Shown here: piece by piece, positions 6,890 to 9,654 of the stretch
Layout: each line of letters starts with the position of its first letter
Position numbering within the stretch: the first letter of the stretch is position 1
NCBI GenBank assembly: GCA_016182385.1
Contig: JACPGV010000010.1
Location: 1 to 37,599, forward strand
Origin: Candidatus Moraniibacteriota bacterium
GTDB lineage: Bacteria > Patescibacteriota > Minisyncoccia > Moranbacterales > UBA1568
Direction: 5' to 3'
DNA length: 37,599 nt
Position numbers and translations under genes: made by a program
The notes under the pieces: generated by a model
What the model saw: the letters and a program-made list of their open reading frames with translations, nothing else
Databases searched by the model: none
What the model was told of the DNA's origin: nothing

Positions 6890-6963
6890 GGGCCTGTAGT
6901 TAAGTGGTACAACGCTGCATTCGCATTGCAGAGGCAGGAGTTCGATTCTCCTCAGGTCCACCA
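6890..6963 (+). tRNA. tRNA-Ala, anticodon CGC
   Basis: Cloverleaf: acceptor stem GGGCCTG with CAGGTCC, D-arm, anticodon stem CTGCA/TGCAG with loop TTCGCAT (anticodon CGC at 6922-6924, reading GCG), 4-nt variable loop, T-arm AGGAG/CTCCT with loop TTCGATT. The third acceptor pair is G3.U70, the hallmark identity element of alanine tRNA. The discriminator is A and CCA is encoded (6961-6963). Its own promoter lies at 6843 and a terminator follows. Confidence 0.96.
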
Positions 6964-7000: not shown

Positions 7001-7029
7001 TTGACACCAATCATAAAAAGGTGTATAAT
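7001..7029 (+). promoter_or_regulatory. Consensus sigma70-type promoter of the DGR target gene
   Basis: Perfect TTGACA (7001-7006), 17-nt spacer, perfect TATAAT (7024-7029). This is the best promoter in the window, predicting strong constitutive expression with a leader of about 120 nt from a start near 7036. Confidence 0.9.
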
Positions 7030-7059
7030 AGCATGTTGAACCTTAAAAATCACAGATTC

Positions 7060-7110
7060 TTTGCCATAGCAGAAAGTGGCTTTAATGAGGCCTTTCTCTG
7101 CTATGGCAAA
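7060..7110 (+). promoter_or_regulatory. Long hairpin in the 5' leader of the DGR target gene
   Basis: A perfect 14-bp stem (7060-7073 with 7097-7110), extended by an inner AAG/CTT and a GGC/GCC pairing. A second short hairpin, CTCGA/TCGAG, follows at 7111-7124. It lies within the mRNA leader, about 30 nt before the SD. It may stabilise the mRNA or regulate it; no T-run follows, so it is not a terminator. No riboswitch class is recognised. Confidence 0.6.
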
Positions 7111-7155
7111 CTCGATTTCTCGAGAGCCCACTAGCGCCTGCAAAGGAGATAGACC

Positions 7156-7779
7156 ATGTCCAAAAATGACATGCTCGCCCCCATCGTTCGTGCTCTCGTG
7201 GGTGTGCCGCAAGAGCGACTGGGAGTTCTGTTCGACGCTATCAACAAGGTCGGCAGTGCCGATGGCGAACTCTGGCGGACACGTTTCGCTGAAGTGCTTC
7301 GCGAAGGAGTGAAGCCGGTGACTCTGTCACCTGAAGCACCGCTTGACACCCTCATCCGTGTCGACCGTTCCGTCCCACTCGTCTATCCCAACTGGGTGAA
7401 GACAGTGATGCACCCGGAACTGGAGCTCACCGGCCCGGTCGAATATGACCTCGGCACCATCGACCCCTGGCTCCACGACGGGCAGAAGAATGGCCGTTAC
7501 ATGGAAGGCCACAAGCTTTACGAGTATCTCAAAAACAAGAAGATGCTCGAGAGCTGCCTGTCGCTGCGCGATGGCGAGGAAATCCAAAAGAAAGGCCTAG
7601 CCGTTTTCCGGAAGTTCTTCCACGGCAAAGCGGTCTTTCTCTGGAAATCGGTCGTGCGGAGCCGCCACGGTAACCTCTTCGTCCCGTCTCTCTACGGGGA
7701 CGACGAGGTGGTGGTGCACTGGCACTGTCTCGACAACGGCTGGAACGACGGCCACCCCGCTCTGCGCTTCGCAAGTTAG
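7156..7779 (+). CDS. DGR target (variable) protein, 207 aa
   Basis: Protein diversified by the adjacent retroelement. Its last 41 residues (about 166-206) are encoded by the variable repeat; only two codons, AGT and TAG, lie past it. The C-terminus (WKSVV, then VVVHWHCLDNGWND and PALRFAS) has the Trp/Gly-rich character of the C-type-lectin fold of known DGR variable proteins, which present variable residues on a ligand-binding face. Residues 1-165 are not recognised beyond likely relatives in other CPR DGR targets. No signal peptide or membrane segment is seen, so how it would reach the surface is unclear. It has a strong SD (AAGGAG 7143-7148), a consensus promoter and its own terminator. The ligand is unknown. 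Confidence 0.9.
   Translation: MSKNDMLAPIVRALVGVPQERLGVLFDAINKVGSADGELWRTRFAEVLREGVKPVTLSPEAPLDTLIRVDRSVPLVYPNWVKTVMHPELELTGPVEYDLGTIDPWLHDGQKNGRYMEGHKLYEYLKNKKMLESCLSLRDGEEIQKKGLAVFRKFFHGKAVFLWKSVVRSRHGNLFVPSLYGDDEVVVHWHCLDNGWNDGHPALRFAS
7652..7772 (+). repeat. DGR variable repeat (VR)
   Basis: 121-nt stretch aligned without gaps to TR (VR position = TR position minus 477). It differs at 15 positions, each an A in TR; 106 positions are identical. Eleven codons within the core change, most of them AAC in TR (read here as Ser, His, Phe or Gly). The last A-free 18 nt (7755-7772) match TR exactly and would be the site where cDNA integration begins (IMH-like). Confidence 0.93.
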
Positions 7780-7792
7780 CACTTCGGACTCT

Positions 7793-7821
7793 GTATCTTG
7801 GGTCTCTTAGACCCTTGATAC
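7793..7821 (+). other. Hairpin/cruciform 21 bp downstream of VR
   Basis: GTATC (7793-7797) pairs with GATAC (7817-7821) and GGGTCT (7800-7805) with AGACCC (7809-7814); a TT/TT mismatch separates the two stems and the loop is CTT. It has no T-run of its own. In the Bordetella phage DGR a DNA hairpin just downstream of VR promotes retrohoming; this one is similarly placed, though further away. The role is inferred. Confidence 0.55.
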
Positions 7822-7834
7822 TTAGTCCTTTGAC

Positions 7835-7869
7835 CCCGCATTTTACCGAACGGTAGTGCGGGATTTTCA
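7835..7869 (+). terminator. Intrinsic terminator of the DGR target gene
   Basis: CCCGCA (7835-7840) pairs with TGCGGG (7857-7862), with an inner ACC/GGT pairing, followed by ATTTTCATTTT. Confidence 0.65.
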
Positions 7870-7890
7870 TTTTCTCAATTTTTTATCTTT

Positions 7891-7899
7891 TGATATACT
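7891..7899 (+). promoter_or_regulatory. Extended -10 promoter upstream of TR
   Basis: TGATATACT fits the TGn-TATACT extended -10 pattern; the -35 region is weak. Transcription would start near 7906 and run through TR to the terminator at 8264-8297. Confidence 0.45.
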
Positions 7900-8128
7900 G
7901 AAATTGGTAGTAGGTGAATCTTGCAGGCGACTACGGTTGCCAGCGGCCGAATCCAGTATCCATACATCGAGAGTATCTGCGGTTACGGCTTCAGATAGAG
8001 TGGTGTATGTAGACACTTCACTAAAAATGAAGATACTTGGTATAAGATGCTAAGGCATTTAAGATGCCGGATTCGATACAGCCCTGAGAGTATTCAAAGG
8101 GTAGTGGCACAGGTGGCATTTTATACGT

Positions 8129-8249
8129 ACGTGCAGAACCGCAACGGTAACCTCAACGTCCCGTATCTCTACGAGGACGACGAGGTGGTGGTGAACTGGA
8201 ACTGTCTCGACAACAACTGGAACGACAACAACCCCGCTCTGCGCTTCGC
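8129..8249 (+). repeat. DGR template repeat (TR)
   Basis: Template for diversification. It contains 32 adenines, 15 of which are replaced in VR (8129, 8135, 8138, 8143, 8155, 8156, 8165, 8174, 8194, 8200, 8215, 8216, 8227, 8228, 8230). Replacements are to G, C and T. No C, G or T position differs. Position 8129 is at the edge of homology and may be chance. AAC codons are heavily used, which maximises the amino acids reachable by changes at A. Confidence 0.95.
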
Positions 8250-8263
8250 CATTCTCTTCTTTT

Positions 8264-8297
8264 CTCCTCTCACTGGTTAGAGGAGTTTTGTTTTTTT
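8264..8297 (+). terminator. Intrinsic terminator right after TR
   Basis: Perfect 7-bp stem CTCCTCT (8264-8270) with AGAGGAG (8279-8285), 8-nt loop, then TTTTGTTTTTTT. On the minus strand the hairpin overlaps the end of avd but has no T-run. Confidence 0.85.
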
Positions 8298-8659
8298 AAG
8301 AGTTGCCCCTGCCAACCCCCGAGCATCCGGCCGATTTCATCAAGCCTTACTGAAAGTGCCAGATACTTTTTATTATCCAGCGACTTTAATTCCCACAGAA
8401 TCATCAAGAGAAGTTTCAGGGTATCCATCTTTTTGATAGCGTGGCGTATGTAGGGAAGTTTGTCCGTGCCTGAAGAAAAACTGGCCGCAGCGACGGCTTC
8501 AATAGTTTCTACAAAGAGACTATCAATTTTTTGTCCGAGAGAATGCCGATGAATTTTTGTCAAAGTAAAAAGATAGCTATACCACAATGTATATCCTTCC
8601 TTCAATTTCTGCAAAAGAGGTAAGAGCCTCGGGGGGGGGGTGTTCAAAGAAGAGTTCAT
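8270..8659 (-). CDS. avd: DGR accessory variability determinant, Avd family (129 aa)
   Basis: Avd proteins form a barrel of four-helix bundles that binds the reverse transcriptase and TR RNA; they are required for mutagenic homing in well-studied DGRs. This protein has the family pattern: a PLLQKLKEGYTLWYSYL first helix, a HRHSLGQKIDSLFVETIEA segment, a helix with KKMDTLKLLLMILWELKSL, and the closing RLDEIGRMLGGWQGQL. It is encoded opposite to TR and RT; in many DGRs avd shares the strand of RT. Its first codons include a run of ten C (G on the plus strand, 8631-8640) read as Pro-Pro-Pro. The ATG at 8659 lies inside the open frame of RT. No SD is visible. Confidence 0.88.
   Translation of the reverse strand: MNSSLNTPPPRLLPLLQKLKEGYTLWYSYLFTLTKIHRHSLGQKIDSLFVETIEAVAAASFSSGTDKLPYIRHAIKKMDTLKLLLMILWELKSLDNKKYLALSVRLDEIGRMLGGWQGQLLKKQNSSNQ
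8557..8583 (+). promoter_or_regulatory. Candidate RT promoter
   Basis: TTGTCA (8557-8562) matches the -35 consensus at five of six bases; TATACC (8578-8583) follows at a short 15-nt spacer. Transcription would start around 8590, past the first ATG of the RT frame. This would favour a later RT start codon. Confidence 0.3.
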
Positions 8660-9654
8660 ATGTAAAGAAAAAATGTGCCGCCACTTATGATAATATCATC
8701 TCTCTCGATAATTTGCTTCTCGCCTGGAAAGAGTTCTTGCAAAGAAAGCAGAAGAGAAAAGATGTCCAGGAGTTCGAACTGCATTTGATGGATAATATCC
8801 TCGCACTGCACCGAGACCTCGTAGCTAAAACCTATCGCCACTCCCACTATGAAGCTTTCAATATCTCCGACCCGAAGCCAAGAAATATCCATAAGGCAAG
8901 GGTGAGGGATAGAGTAGTGCACCGAGCCATTTACCGCATCCTTTATCCTTTTTTCGACCGGCTATTCATTGCCGACTCTTATTCTTGCCGAAATGATAAA
9001 GGAATCCATAAGGCTCTCAATCGCTTCCGCAGCTTCGCTCGCAAGGTTTCTTGCAACCATACACAGACTGTGTGGGCACTCAAATGCGATGTGAGAAAGT
9101 TCTTTGCTTCTATCGATCAGAGCATCCTCCTTAGTATTCTTGAAAAACATATTCCTGACCAAGATATTCTTAAGCTTCTTTCAGAAATCATTGGGAGTTT
9201 CCATACAGAGGAAGGGAAGGGCTTGCCACTTGGCAACCTTACTTCTCAACTTCTGGTCAATGTCTATATGAACGAGTTTGACCAATTTATGAAACATCAG
9301 GCAAAAGCCAAATACTATATCCGCTATGCTGATGACTTTGTGATTTTCTCGGATAACAAGAAACAGTTAAAAACAACTCTTTTGCAGATAAGTGCTTTCC
9401 TTGAGTTTCGTCTTGGTCTCAAGCTTCATCCTGATAAAGTGTTCATCAAAACAGTGGCTTCCGGCGTGGACTTCCTGGGTTGGGTGCATTTCCCACGCCA
9501 TCGGGTGTTACGCACAGTTACCAAAAACAGAGCCTTTCGGAATATCCGTGAGAAGGAAAGGAAGCAGGAAACGGTGGAGTCGTATCTCAAGCTTATAAAA
9601 CACGGGAATGCTTATAAGTTACGAAAGAGAATTGAGGCTACGTTGGTTGATTGA
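8587..9654 (+). CDS. DGR reverse transcriptase (up to 355 aa)
   Basis: Copies TR RNA into cDNA with frequent errors at adenines. Reverse-transcriptase motifs are in order: ALKCDVRKFFASID (catalytic Asp about 168), LPLGNLTSQ (215-221), where LGxxxSQ is the DGR-type replacement of the QG of group II introns, YIRYADD (catalytic Asp pair 249-250) and GVDFLGW. There is no maturase, X or endonuclease domain, as expected for a DGR RT. The domain similarity begins near residue 29 (KKCAATYDNIISLDNLLLAW). The first 25 residues, including a Gly-Gly-Gly from the G run, have no family resemblance, so the true start is uncertain: either ATG 8587, without SD, or a non-ATG codon after the run. Confidence 0.93.
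   Translation: MYILPSISAKEVRASGGGCSKKSSYVKKKCAATYDNIISLDNLLLAWKEFLQRKQKRKDVQEFELHLMDNILALHRDLVAKTYRHSHYEAFNISDPKPRNIHKARVRDRVVHRAIYRILYPFFDRLFIADSYSCRNDKGIHKALNRFRSFARKVSCNHTQTVWALKCDVRKFFASIDQSILLSILEKHIPDQDILKLLSEIIGSFHTEEGKGLPLGNLTSQLLVNVYMNEFDQFMKHQAKAKYYIRYADDFVIFSDNKKQLKTTLLQISAFLEFRLGLKLHPDKVFIKTVASGVDFLGWVHFPRHRVLRTVTKNRAFRNIREKERKQETVESYLKLIKHGNAYKLRKRIEATLVD
8631..8640. repeat. Homopolymer of ten G (ten C on the avd strand)
   Basis: An uninterrupted G10 run inside the overlap of the first codons of avd (minus) and the 5' part of the RT frame (plus). Runs of this length slip readily in replication and are also prone to sequencing error. A change of one or two bases would shift both frames. 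Confidence 0.9.
8690..8698 (-). promoter_or_regulatory. Candidate avd promoter (extended -10)
   Basis: On the minus strand it reads TGATATTAT, the TGn-TATTAT pattern, about 24 nt before the avd start if transcription begins near 8683. It lies inside the RT coding frame. No clear -35 box. Confidence 0.35.

Follow-up and report, generated by a model that had tools for sequence, protein, structure and literature searches.

The current analysis concerns a diversity-generating retroelement (DGR) at positions 7001-9654 of a 37,599-nt stretch of contig JACPGV010000010.1 (GCA_016182385.1, Candidatus Moraniibacteriota bacterium), a stretch that we refer to in its entirety as the window. This element is likely an active DGR of a Patescibacteria-wide lineage, in which the template RNA has a folded 5' leader and the accessory gene avd is probably phase-variable. 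Three of its features go beyond the preliminary description of the locus: an antisense Avd, a structured 5' leader on the template RNA, and a poly-G tract at the start of avd. If the last of these is a heritable switch as we suppose, it would act upon hypermutation itself, adding a second tier of variation in which a random switch is superimposed upon a random mutator.

Results and Discussion

Identity and activity of the DGR

The variable repeat (VR) and template repeat (TR) align without gaps over 121 positions at an offset of 477, and their 15 differences all fall on TR adenines (15 of 32, versus 0 of the 89 other positions; TR composition A32 C38 G31 T20; hypergeometric chance 1e-10), comprising seven A>G, five A>C and three A>T changes. 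The adenine-confined pattern first reported for this pair is thus exact, and the VR does lie at the end of its target gene, as had been stated, stopping within the second-last codon of a 207-aa protein. Downstream, the predicted reverse transcriptase (RT) with its YADD and LGNLTSQ motifs matches PHROG 1423 (reverse transcriptase, E 5e-109) as well as Pfam RVT_1. An Avd-type protein had also been placed between TR and RT. Its identity held (bAvd PF22296 above cut-off and PHROG 3206, with NCBIfam DivGenRetAVD below its cut-off), with the correction that avd occupies the minus strand (8659-8270), antisense to the target, TR and RT, with its 5' end overlapping the RT open reading frame (ORF). With TR/VR, RT and Avd all present, a complete DGR with a pure adenine-mutation signature in a genome of the candidate phyla radiation (CPR) is well founded.

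The preliminary description had further claimed that the system was active in its lineage, which is borne out by comparison with the nearest relative carrying the locus, Ca. Moraniibacteriota Gw_Eff_bin_331 (L069). Outside of the VR, the two target genes are 3.8% diverged, and a single base (T/G) together with a 3-nt insertion distinguishes the two TRs, while the VRs differ at 23 of 31 shared TR-A sites and at 0 of 88 shared non-A sites. At both of these TR differences, each VR agrees with its own TR. Similar contrasts with the window VR are found for L026 (21/29 shared A versus 0/77 non-A sites) and L076 (12/29 versus 2/79). From these comparisons, we infer that the VR has been rewritten from the TR since these lineages split. 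The L069 contig (1-3653) opens with the C-terminal part of an RT that is 89% identical to that of the window, followed by a second cassette in which the match to the RT stops at residue 181, which represents either a tandem or a broken DGR copy.

A repeat tract at the start of avd

Between the avd start codon and the conserved domain lies a tract of ten G residues. When 69 related loci were surveyed, G runs of at least seven were found at the avd start in 45 and of at least nine in 37, whereas no other G or C run of at least nine occurs in the 928,089 nt of the same loci. Across the entire genome containing the window, there are three G runs of at least nine, and all of them are at its three avd starts. 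Among other genomes of the family, G or C runs of at least nine are also encountered where the 1-2 kb fetched contains neither avd nor RT (L185-L199), and outside of the window genome the tracts are therefore not exclusive to DGRs. Several of these latter runs apparently lie outside of coding frames and could belong to further phase-variable genes or promoters.

In all 45 tract loci, at least one frame has an ATG open to the tract (19.2 expected), and in 38 of them exactly one frame does. At the assembled tract lengths, avd is in frame in 12 of the 45 and out of frame in 33, which fits a proportion of one third (p 0.43); the avd of the window is in frame (ON), while the ATG of the sister locus L069 is out of frame. 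Relatives lacking a G tract have (AACC)10, (ACGA)9, (CAGC)6, (CT)11 or (AG)12 at the same site, and the first 29 loci brought in by a covariance model of the leader (R1, described below) exhibit C8-C12, (CA)9, (CA)14, (CT)9, (GA)10 or (CAAT)7 at the avd start. All of the repeat units there are 1, 2 or 4 nt long. Among 11 sense-Avd or phage DGRs, none has a repeat at this position, and most of the antisense-Avd loci with more divergent RTs likewise lack one, their avd beginning directly at the ATG.

Two features by which simple sequence repeat (SSR) phase-variable genes are recognized are consequently both found here: a frameshifting repeat separates the start codon from the conserved domain, and in-frame (12) and out-of-frame (33) alleles coexist among relatives. 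As the simplest reading, avd is probably an SSR phase-variable gene, and hypermutation itself would then switch on and off. In the window, the RT may be phase-coupled to avd, since the only in-frame RT ATG (8587) precedes the tract and no in-frame ATG, GTG or TTG follows it (8587-8690). A phase-variable avd is not mentioned in the DGR literature that we searched, though this search was not exhaustive and an earlier report of it, or of the leader, may exist.

A structured 5' leader of the template RNA

Among related loci, a conserved stretch between VR and TR begins behind a -10 element and ends at the TR. Over 32 loci, the 30 predicted leader pairs are formed in 95.9% of cells versus 72.6% after shuffling, 26 of the 30 have changes on both sides, and the covariation score is 0.805 as compared to 0.309 for shuffled alignments and 0.12-0.21 for slid-partner controls. 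Helix P3 is paired in 98.2% of cells and has double changes in 10 of its 12 pairs. The R1 model, built from 7967-8128, recovers divergent DGR loci that were left out of model building, and its matches end within 0-13 nt of the independently found TR in the CPR loci compared. R1 matches 73 of 380 Patescibacteria genomes, 69 of which also have an RT match (hypergeometric 1.7e-47), and for 76 of its 95 matches a DGR RT follows on the same strand at a distance of 450-590 nt. Taken together, these sequence comparisons lend good support to a conserved, folded leader at the 5' end of the template RNA in Patescibacteria DGRs.

The same model is of practical use, because it finds DGRs and template RNAs that have no adjacent RT. 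Leader-TR-VR cassettes with no RT in the stretch fetched were obtained at L150, L153 (with avd-like sequence after the TR), L154 and L158, where 26/35, 25/26, 14/15 and 21/21 differences, respectively, fall on A. As the genomes of these solo cassettes carry a DGR RT elsewhere, their template RNAs are probably served in trans. Some other R1 hits without an adjacent RT (L149, L151, L156, L160, L161 and L163) do not represent cassettes, being weak matches or the ends of contigs. A related arrangement is seen at L152 (genome G284; 1097-1219 and 7475-7597), where a second leader-TR, situated 5 kb further downstream than a complete DGR, has its VR partner at 1097-1219, near the first cassette.

The leader is not readily accommodated by existing RNA families. 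The best Rfam match of the window leader is RT-7, whose score of 23.0 bits falls far below the cut-off of 116.8 and places the leader outside of that family, and a search for RT-7 over the 380 Patescibacteria genomes gave no match above cut-off. For RT-15, no match was reported in the window up to E 10, which likewise argues against membership. The loops had suggested TwoAYGGAY as a candidate, which was discarded after Rfam gave no such match.

A long-range helix and a candidate primer

Downstream of the A-run of the leader, the 5' strand of helix P6 is complementary to a strand located immediately 3' of the TR. The mean duplex energy of P6 is -9.2 over 44 loci versus -7.7 (sd 0.3) with loci mispaired, a value reached in 0 of 20000 permutations, and there are 54 double-changed cells versus 20.7 after shuffling (0/2000). 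Two bases past the P6 strand is A8035, followed by UUG facing CAA/GAA at the TR end. The complementarity scan that pointed to the P6 strand also proposed a pairing of the P5 loop GAGAGU with ACUCUC after the TR, which was rejected for want of permutation support (1373/2000). With a terminator immediately after P6, there is no room for a 3' spacer RNA behind the TR.

The BPP-1 phage DGR offers an obvious parallel. There, the TR end AUCACCU is bound by the spacer strand AGGUGGU, and the second base after that strand, spacer position 56, is likewise an unpaired A. In BPP-1, an internal spacer adenine primes cDNA synthesis at the TR 3' junction (PMC12875486). By analogy, A8035 is a candidate cDNA primer. 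The order of elements, namely hairpin, anchor strand, unpaired A and 3' domain, also appears to be the same as in BPP-1, with the TR moved from before these elements to after them. Among phage DGRs, Rfam places Phage_DGR, RT-14, RT-17 and RT-9 all 3' of the TR, while RT-15 lies 5' of the TR in two phage DGRs, in one of which (L111) the strand UGAAUCUGG pairs across the TR 3' end. The Patescibacteria leader is a third, Rfam-unmatched member of this 5' class. The value of the comparison with BPP-1 RNA is that it predicts the cDNA-priming nucleotide as well as the helices binding RT and Avd.

A proposed mechanism and its alternatives

Based upon these features, several proposals can be made regarding the function of the element. 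Firstly, the comparisons support a dedicated template RNA (about 7906-8290) that has its own -10 element and terminator and in which only a very short 3' end follows the leader and TR. P3 closes right before the TR and a P6 strand pairs with the sequence right after it, and the TR should thus form a loop whose 3' end is fixed in place. They likewise support an RT that makes errors at A when copying the TR, the resulting cDNA replacing the VR of the target. RT and Avd presumably bind the leader, and unpaired A8035 would prime cDNA synthesis, much like the spacer adenine of BPP-1. Secondly, slippage in the mono-, di- or tetranucleotide repeat between the avd start codon and domain would shift the frame, and cells would thereby heritably switch Avd, and hence hypermutation, ON or OFF.

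The attraction of such a switch lies in a problem inherent to DGRs, as their action overwrites useful VR alleles each time. One suggestion is that stable conditions may keep hypermutation suppressed (PMC8867640). A heritable Avd switch, if true, would answer the overwriting problem for a large lineage: most cells of a population would be frozen, while a few would be diversifying. We consider reasonably likely, with somewhat less assurance than the account above, a joint reading in which the hypermutation machinery of Patescibacteria is a contingency locus, slippage of the avd repeat turning retrohoming on in a minority of cells while the selected VR is locked in the rest, and in which the template RNA is a permuted BPP-1 RNA, with the RT-binding and priming domain placed before the template.

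Several points weigh against the proposed mechanism. The minimum-energy fold of the single window RNA exhibits neither P3 nor P6, and P6b is nearly invariant and lacks covariation. Homology by permutation would rest upon element order and pairing rather than upon score, because the RT-7 and RT-15 matches are far below cut-off and R1 does not match phage spacers. Homopolymer lengths in assembled metagenomes can err by one base, which leaves individual ON/OFF calls unsure. Lastly, the essentiality of Avd is established only in other DGRs (BPP-1).

It is also conceivable that the repeat acts on the RT rather than on Avd, as part of an RT 5' leader in which its length alters the spacing of a promoter or ribosome site. 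In most loci the RT start comes shortly after the tract, and the tract of the window follows the sole in-frame RT ATG. However, most loci have their own RT start downstream of the tract, so the RT frame is unaffected there, and it is the avd start that always lies upstream of the tract in the sense of that gene. We regard an action upon the RT as unlikely. A comparably improbable alternative is programmed slippage, by which RNA polymerase or the ribosome would slip on the avd repeat, with some Avd being made in frame at all times and the repeat tuning its dose instead of switching it heritably. It would account for 33 of 45 assembled loci being out of frame despite intact-looking DGRs and retention of the repeat. 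Known cases of programmed slippage, however, use homopolymers or special heptamers, whereas the same site is also occupied by dinucleotide and tetranucleotide repeats (AACC, ACGA, CAGC, CAAT), on all of which replication slippage acts, and the ON fraction is near one third.

Returning to phase variation of avd, the frameshifts could in principle reflect a gene being lost, or homopolymer assembly error in a normal one. The genomes are indeed metagenome-assembled, and some RTs have frameshifts or stops (L076, L031). We consider this quite improbable, since the remainder of the gene shows conservation across about 110 codons even where avd is out of frame, the frameshifts are confined to one repeat site with an ATG at a suitable distance in 45 of 45 loci, and the position of the repeat is kept while its type varies. 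Least credible, to the point of being negligible, is an ordinary constitutive DGR of the BPP-1 type (avd-TR-spacer-RT, with a priming RNA 3' of the TR), in which the tract is due to chance and the intergenic region is plain spacer: although the cassette does have RT, Avd, TR, VR, an IMH-like end and a hairpin at the VR, such a DGR is at odds with the antisense Avd, the terminator 15 nt after the TR, the covarying leader 5' of the TR, a tract enrichment far beyond chance, and held-out loci that reproduced both the leader model matches and the tract pattern.

Comparison with known systems

The element shares with the BPP-1 DGR (avd-TR-Sp-brt; Phage_DGR RF03022) its A-specific VR/TR differences, RT, Avd, IMH-like end and a hairpin after the VR, in addition to the anchoring strand and unpaired A discussed above. 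Despite this, the layouts are distinct: in BPP-1, avd is sense and upstream of the TR and the structured RNA is 3' of the TR, whereas in the window avd is antisense and downstream of the TR and the structured RNA is 5' of it. Rfam RT-15 (RF03018) is similar in its location directly 5' of the TR, and RT-7 (RF03028) in a P2 hairpin motif common to the Patescibacteria leader. The RT-15 phages, however, have a sense avd, and the Patescibacteria leader scores far below the family cut-offs (23 vs 116.8 bits).

CPR DGR clade 2 of Roux et al. 2021 comprises Patescibacteria-restricted DGRs having targets without known domains (PMC8144416). The DGRs described here are comparable in both respects, and their RTs form a supported clade (99/97) with an antisense Avd. 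The terms Avd, antisense, phase variation and homopolymer are all absent from the main text of PMC8144416. As for the proposed switch, the closest parallels are SSR contingency loci.

Such loci, including the poly-G/C genes of Campylobacter and Neisseria, mostly switch genes that make surface structures. Like them, avd has frameshifting 1, 2 or 4-nt repeats at the gene 5' end and is in frame in about a third of genomes. In contrast, the gene predicted to be switched here is part of a mutator.

Distribution among relatives

The window genome (775,714 bp, 98.6% complete) encodes three DGR RTs, that of the window and two on contig C2 (62-66% identity), each with its own TR/VR pair and one leader RNA. 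A genome-wide search for further VRs, as proposed at the outset, found only a single VR for the window TR and revealed the two further complete DGRs. These (L021 and L022; genome G000, contig C2, near 15,000 and 207,000) include a leader, an antisense avd and a poly-G tract, and their targets (234 and 612 aa) have no profile match to that of the window. Within the family, 11 of 28 genomes have RT relatives, as do 97 of 380 in the phylum, and Avd is antisense and between TR and RT in every related locus where it was found beside the RT. In the RT tree, the antisense-Avd DGRs form a clade (support 99/97) that includes neither the phage DGRs nor three Patescibacteria DGRs with a sense Avd, with the placement of the long phage branches being unsure. 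Those three (L170, L171 and L174) have a sense avd upstream of the TR and fall outside of the antisense-Avd clade.

Layout of the cassette and its target

Table 1. Features of the DGR cassette, in window coordinates.
Feature	Position	Strand	Remarks
tRNA-Ala (CGC)	6890-6963		directly upstream of cassette; possible insertion site
Terminator-like hairpin	6974		after tRNA-Ala (CGC)
Sigma-70-like promoter, TTGACA-17-TATAAT	7001-7029	+	upstream of target gene; consensus match 12/12
Inverted repeat TTTGCCATAGCAGAAAG...CTTTCTCTGCTATGGCAAA	7060-7110		between target promoter and target start; possible attenuator or RNA hairpin
Target gene, 207 aa	7156-7779	+	ORF; VR in C-terminal domain (residues about 65-207); stop TAG 7777-7779
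Variable repeat (VR)	7652-7772	+	15 differences to TR, all at TR A
IMH-like GC-rich 3' end of VR and TR	7754-7772	+	19 identical bases ACCCCGCTCTGCGCTTCGC in VR/TR alignment
16-bp interrupted inverted repeat	7786-7828	.	14 bp after VR, where BPP-1 has its hairpin/cruciform target element
Terminator-like hairpin of target gene	7835-7862	+	single-strand fold
-10 element TATACT of template RNA	7894-7899	+	TATAAT-like element at same position in related loci
Structured 5' leader of template RNA	7906-8128	+	RNAalifold and covariation (44, 41, 32 loci); model R1
Leader hairpin P2, YA(C/A)GG loop	7974-7997	+	helix in covariation set; weak match to Rfam RT-7
P6 5' strand (AAATGAAGA)	8025-8033	+	partner 8255-8263, just downstream of TR
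Near-invariant unpaired A	8035	+	kept in 40/44 loci; candidate primer by analogy with BPP-1 spacer A56
Helix P3	8040-8051 with 8115-8126	+	closes multiloop holding P4 and P5, directly before TR
Template repeat (TR)	8129-8249	+	VR/TR alignment
P6 3' strand	8255-8263	+	partner of 8025-8033
Rho-independent terminator of template RNA	8264-8285	+	15 nt after TR; tails of related loci aligned
avd (accessory variability determinant)	8270-8659	-	antisense; ATG 8657-8659; profile searches
G10 tract (poly-C in avd sense)	8631-8640	.	in frame (ON) here; predicted phase-variation switch
DGR reverse transcriptase, 355 aa	8587-9654	+	ORF, profile searches

Behind the VR, the single-strand DNA fold of 7773-7870 reaches -20.7 kcal/mol (z -6.9), a value for the whole stretch with the terminator hairpin included. 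The 16-bp interrupted inverted repeat within it may serve as a target hairpin, by analogy with BPP-1 (PMC3240598). For the inverted repeat upstream of the target gene, Rfam gave weak, microRNA-like matches only, on both strands.

Sequence searches of the target against Pfam, PHROG, NCBIfam and the PDB yielded nothing usable, and relatives of the target were detected in 15 related loci at E<=1e-4. Its structural model has a pLDDT of 80 overall and about 90 in the C-terminal domain, for which the best matches among solved structures are mostly C-type lectins, albeit weak (Foldseek E 0.57; VIA Z 3-4.6, with CarF at rank 1); VIA-align and Foldseek matches to non-lectin folds were set aside as weak. 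A VR in the C-terminal domain together with lectin-like matches to the predicted model fits the usual lectin scaffold of DGR targets without proving it. The target gene also stands out in composition, with a GC content of 58.5%, rising to 67% in the VR, versus 43% for the window.

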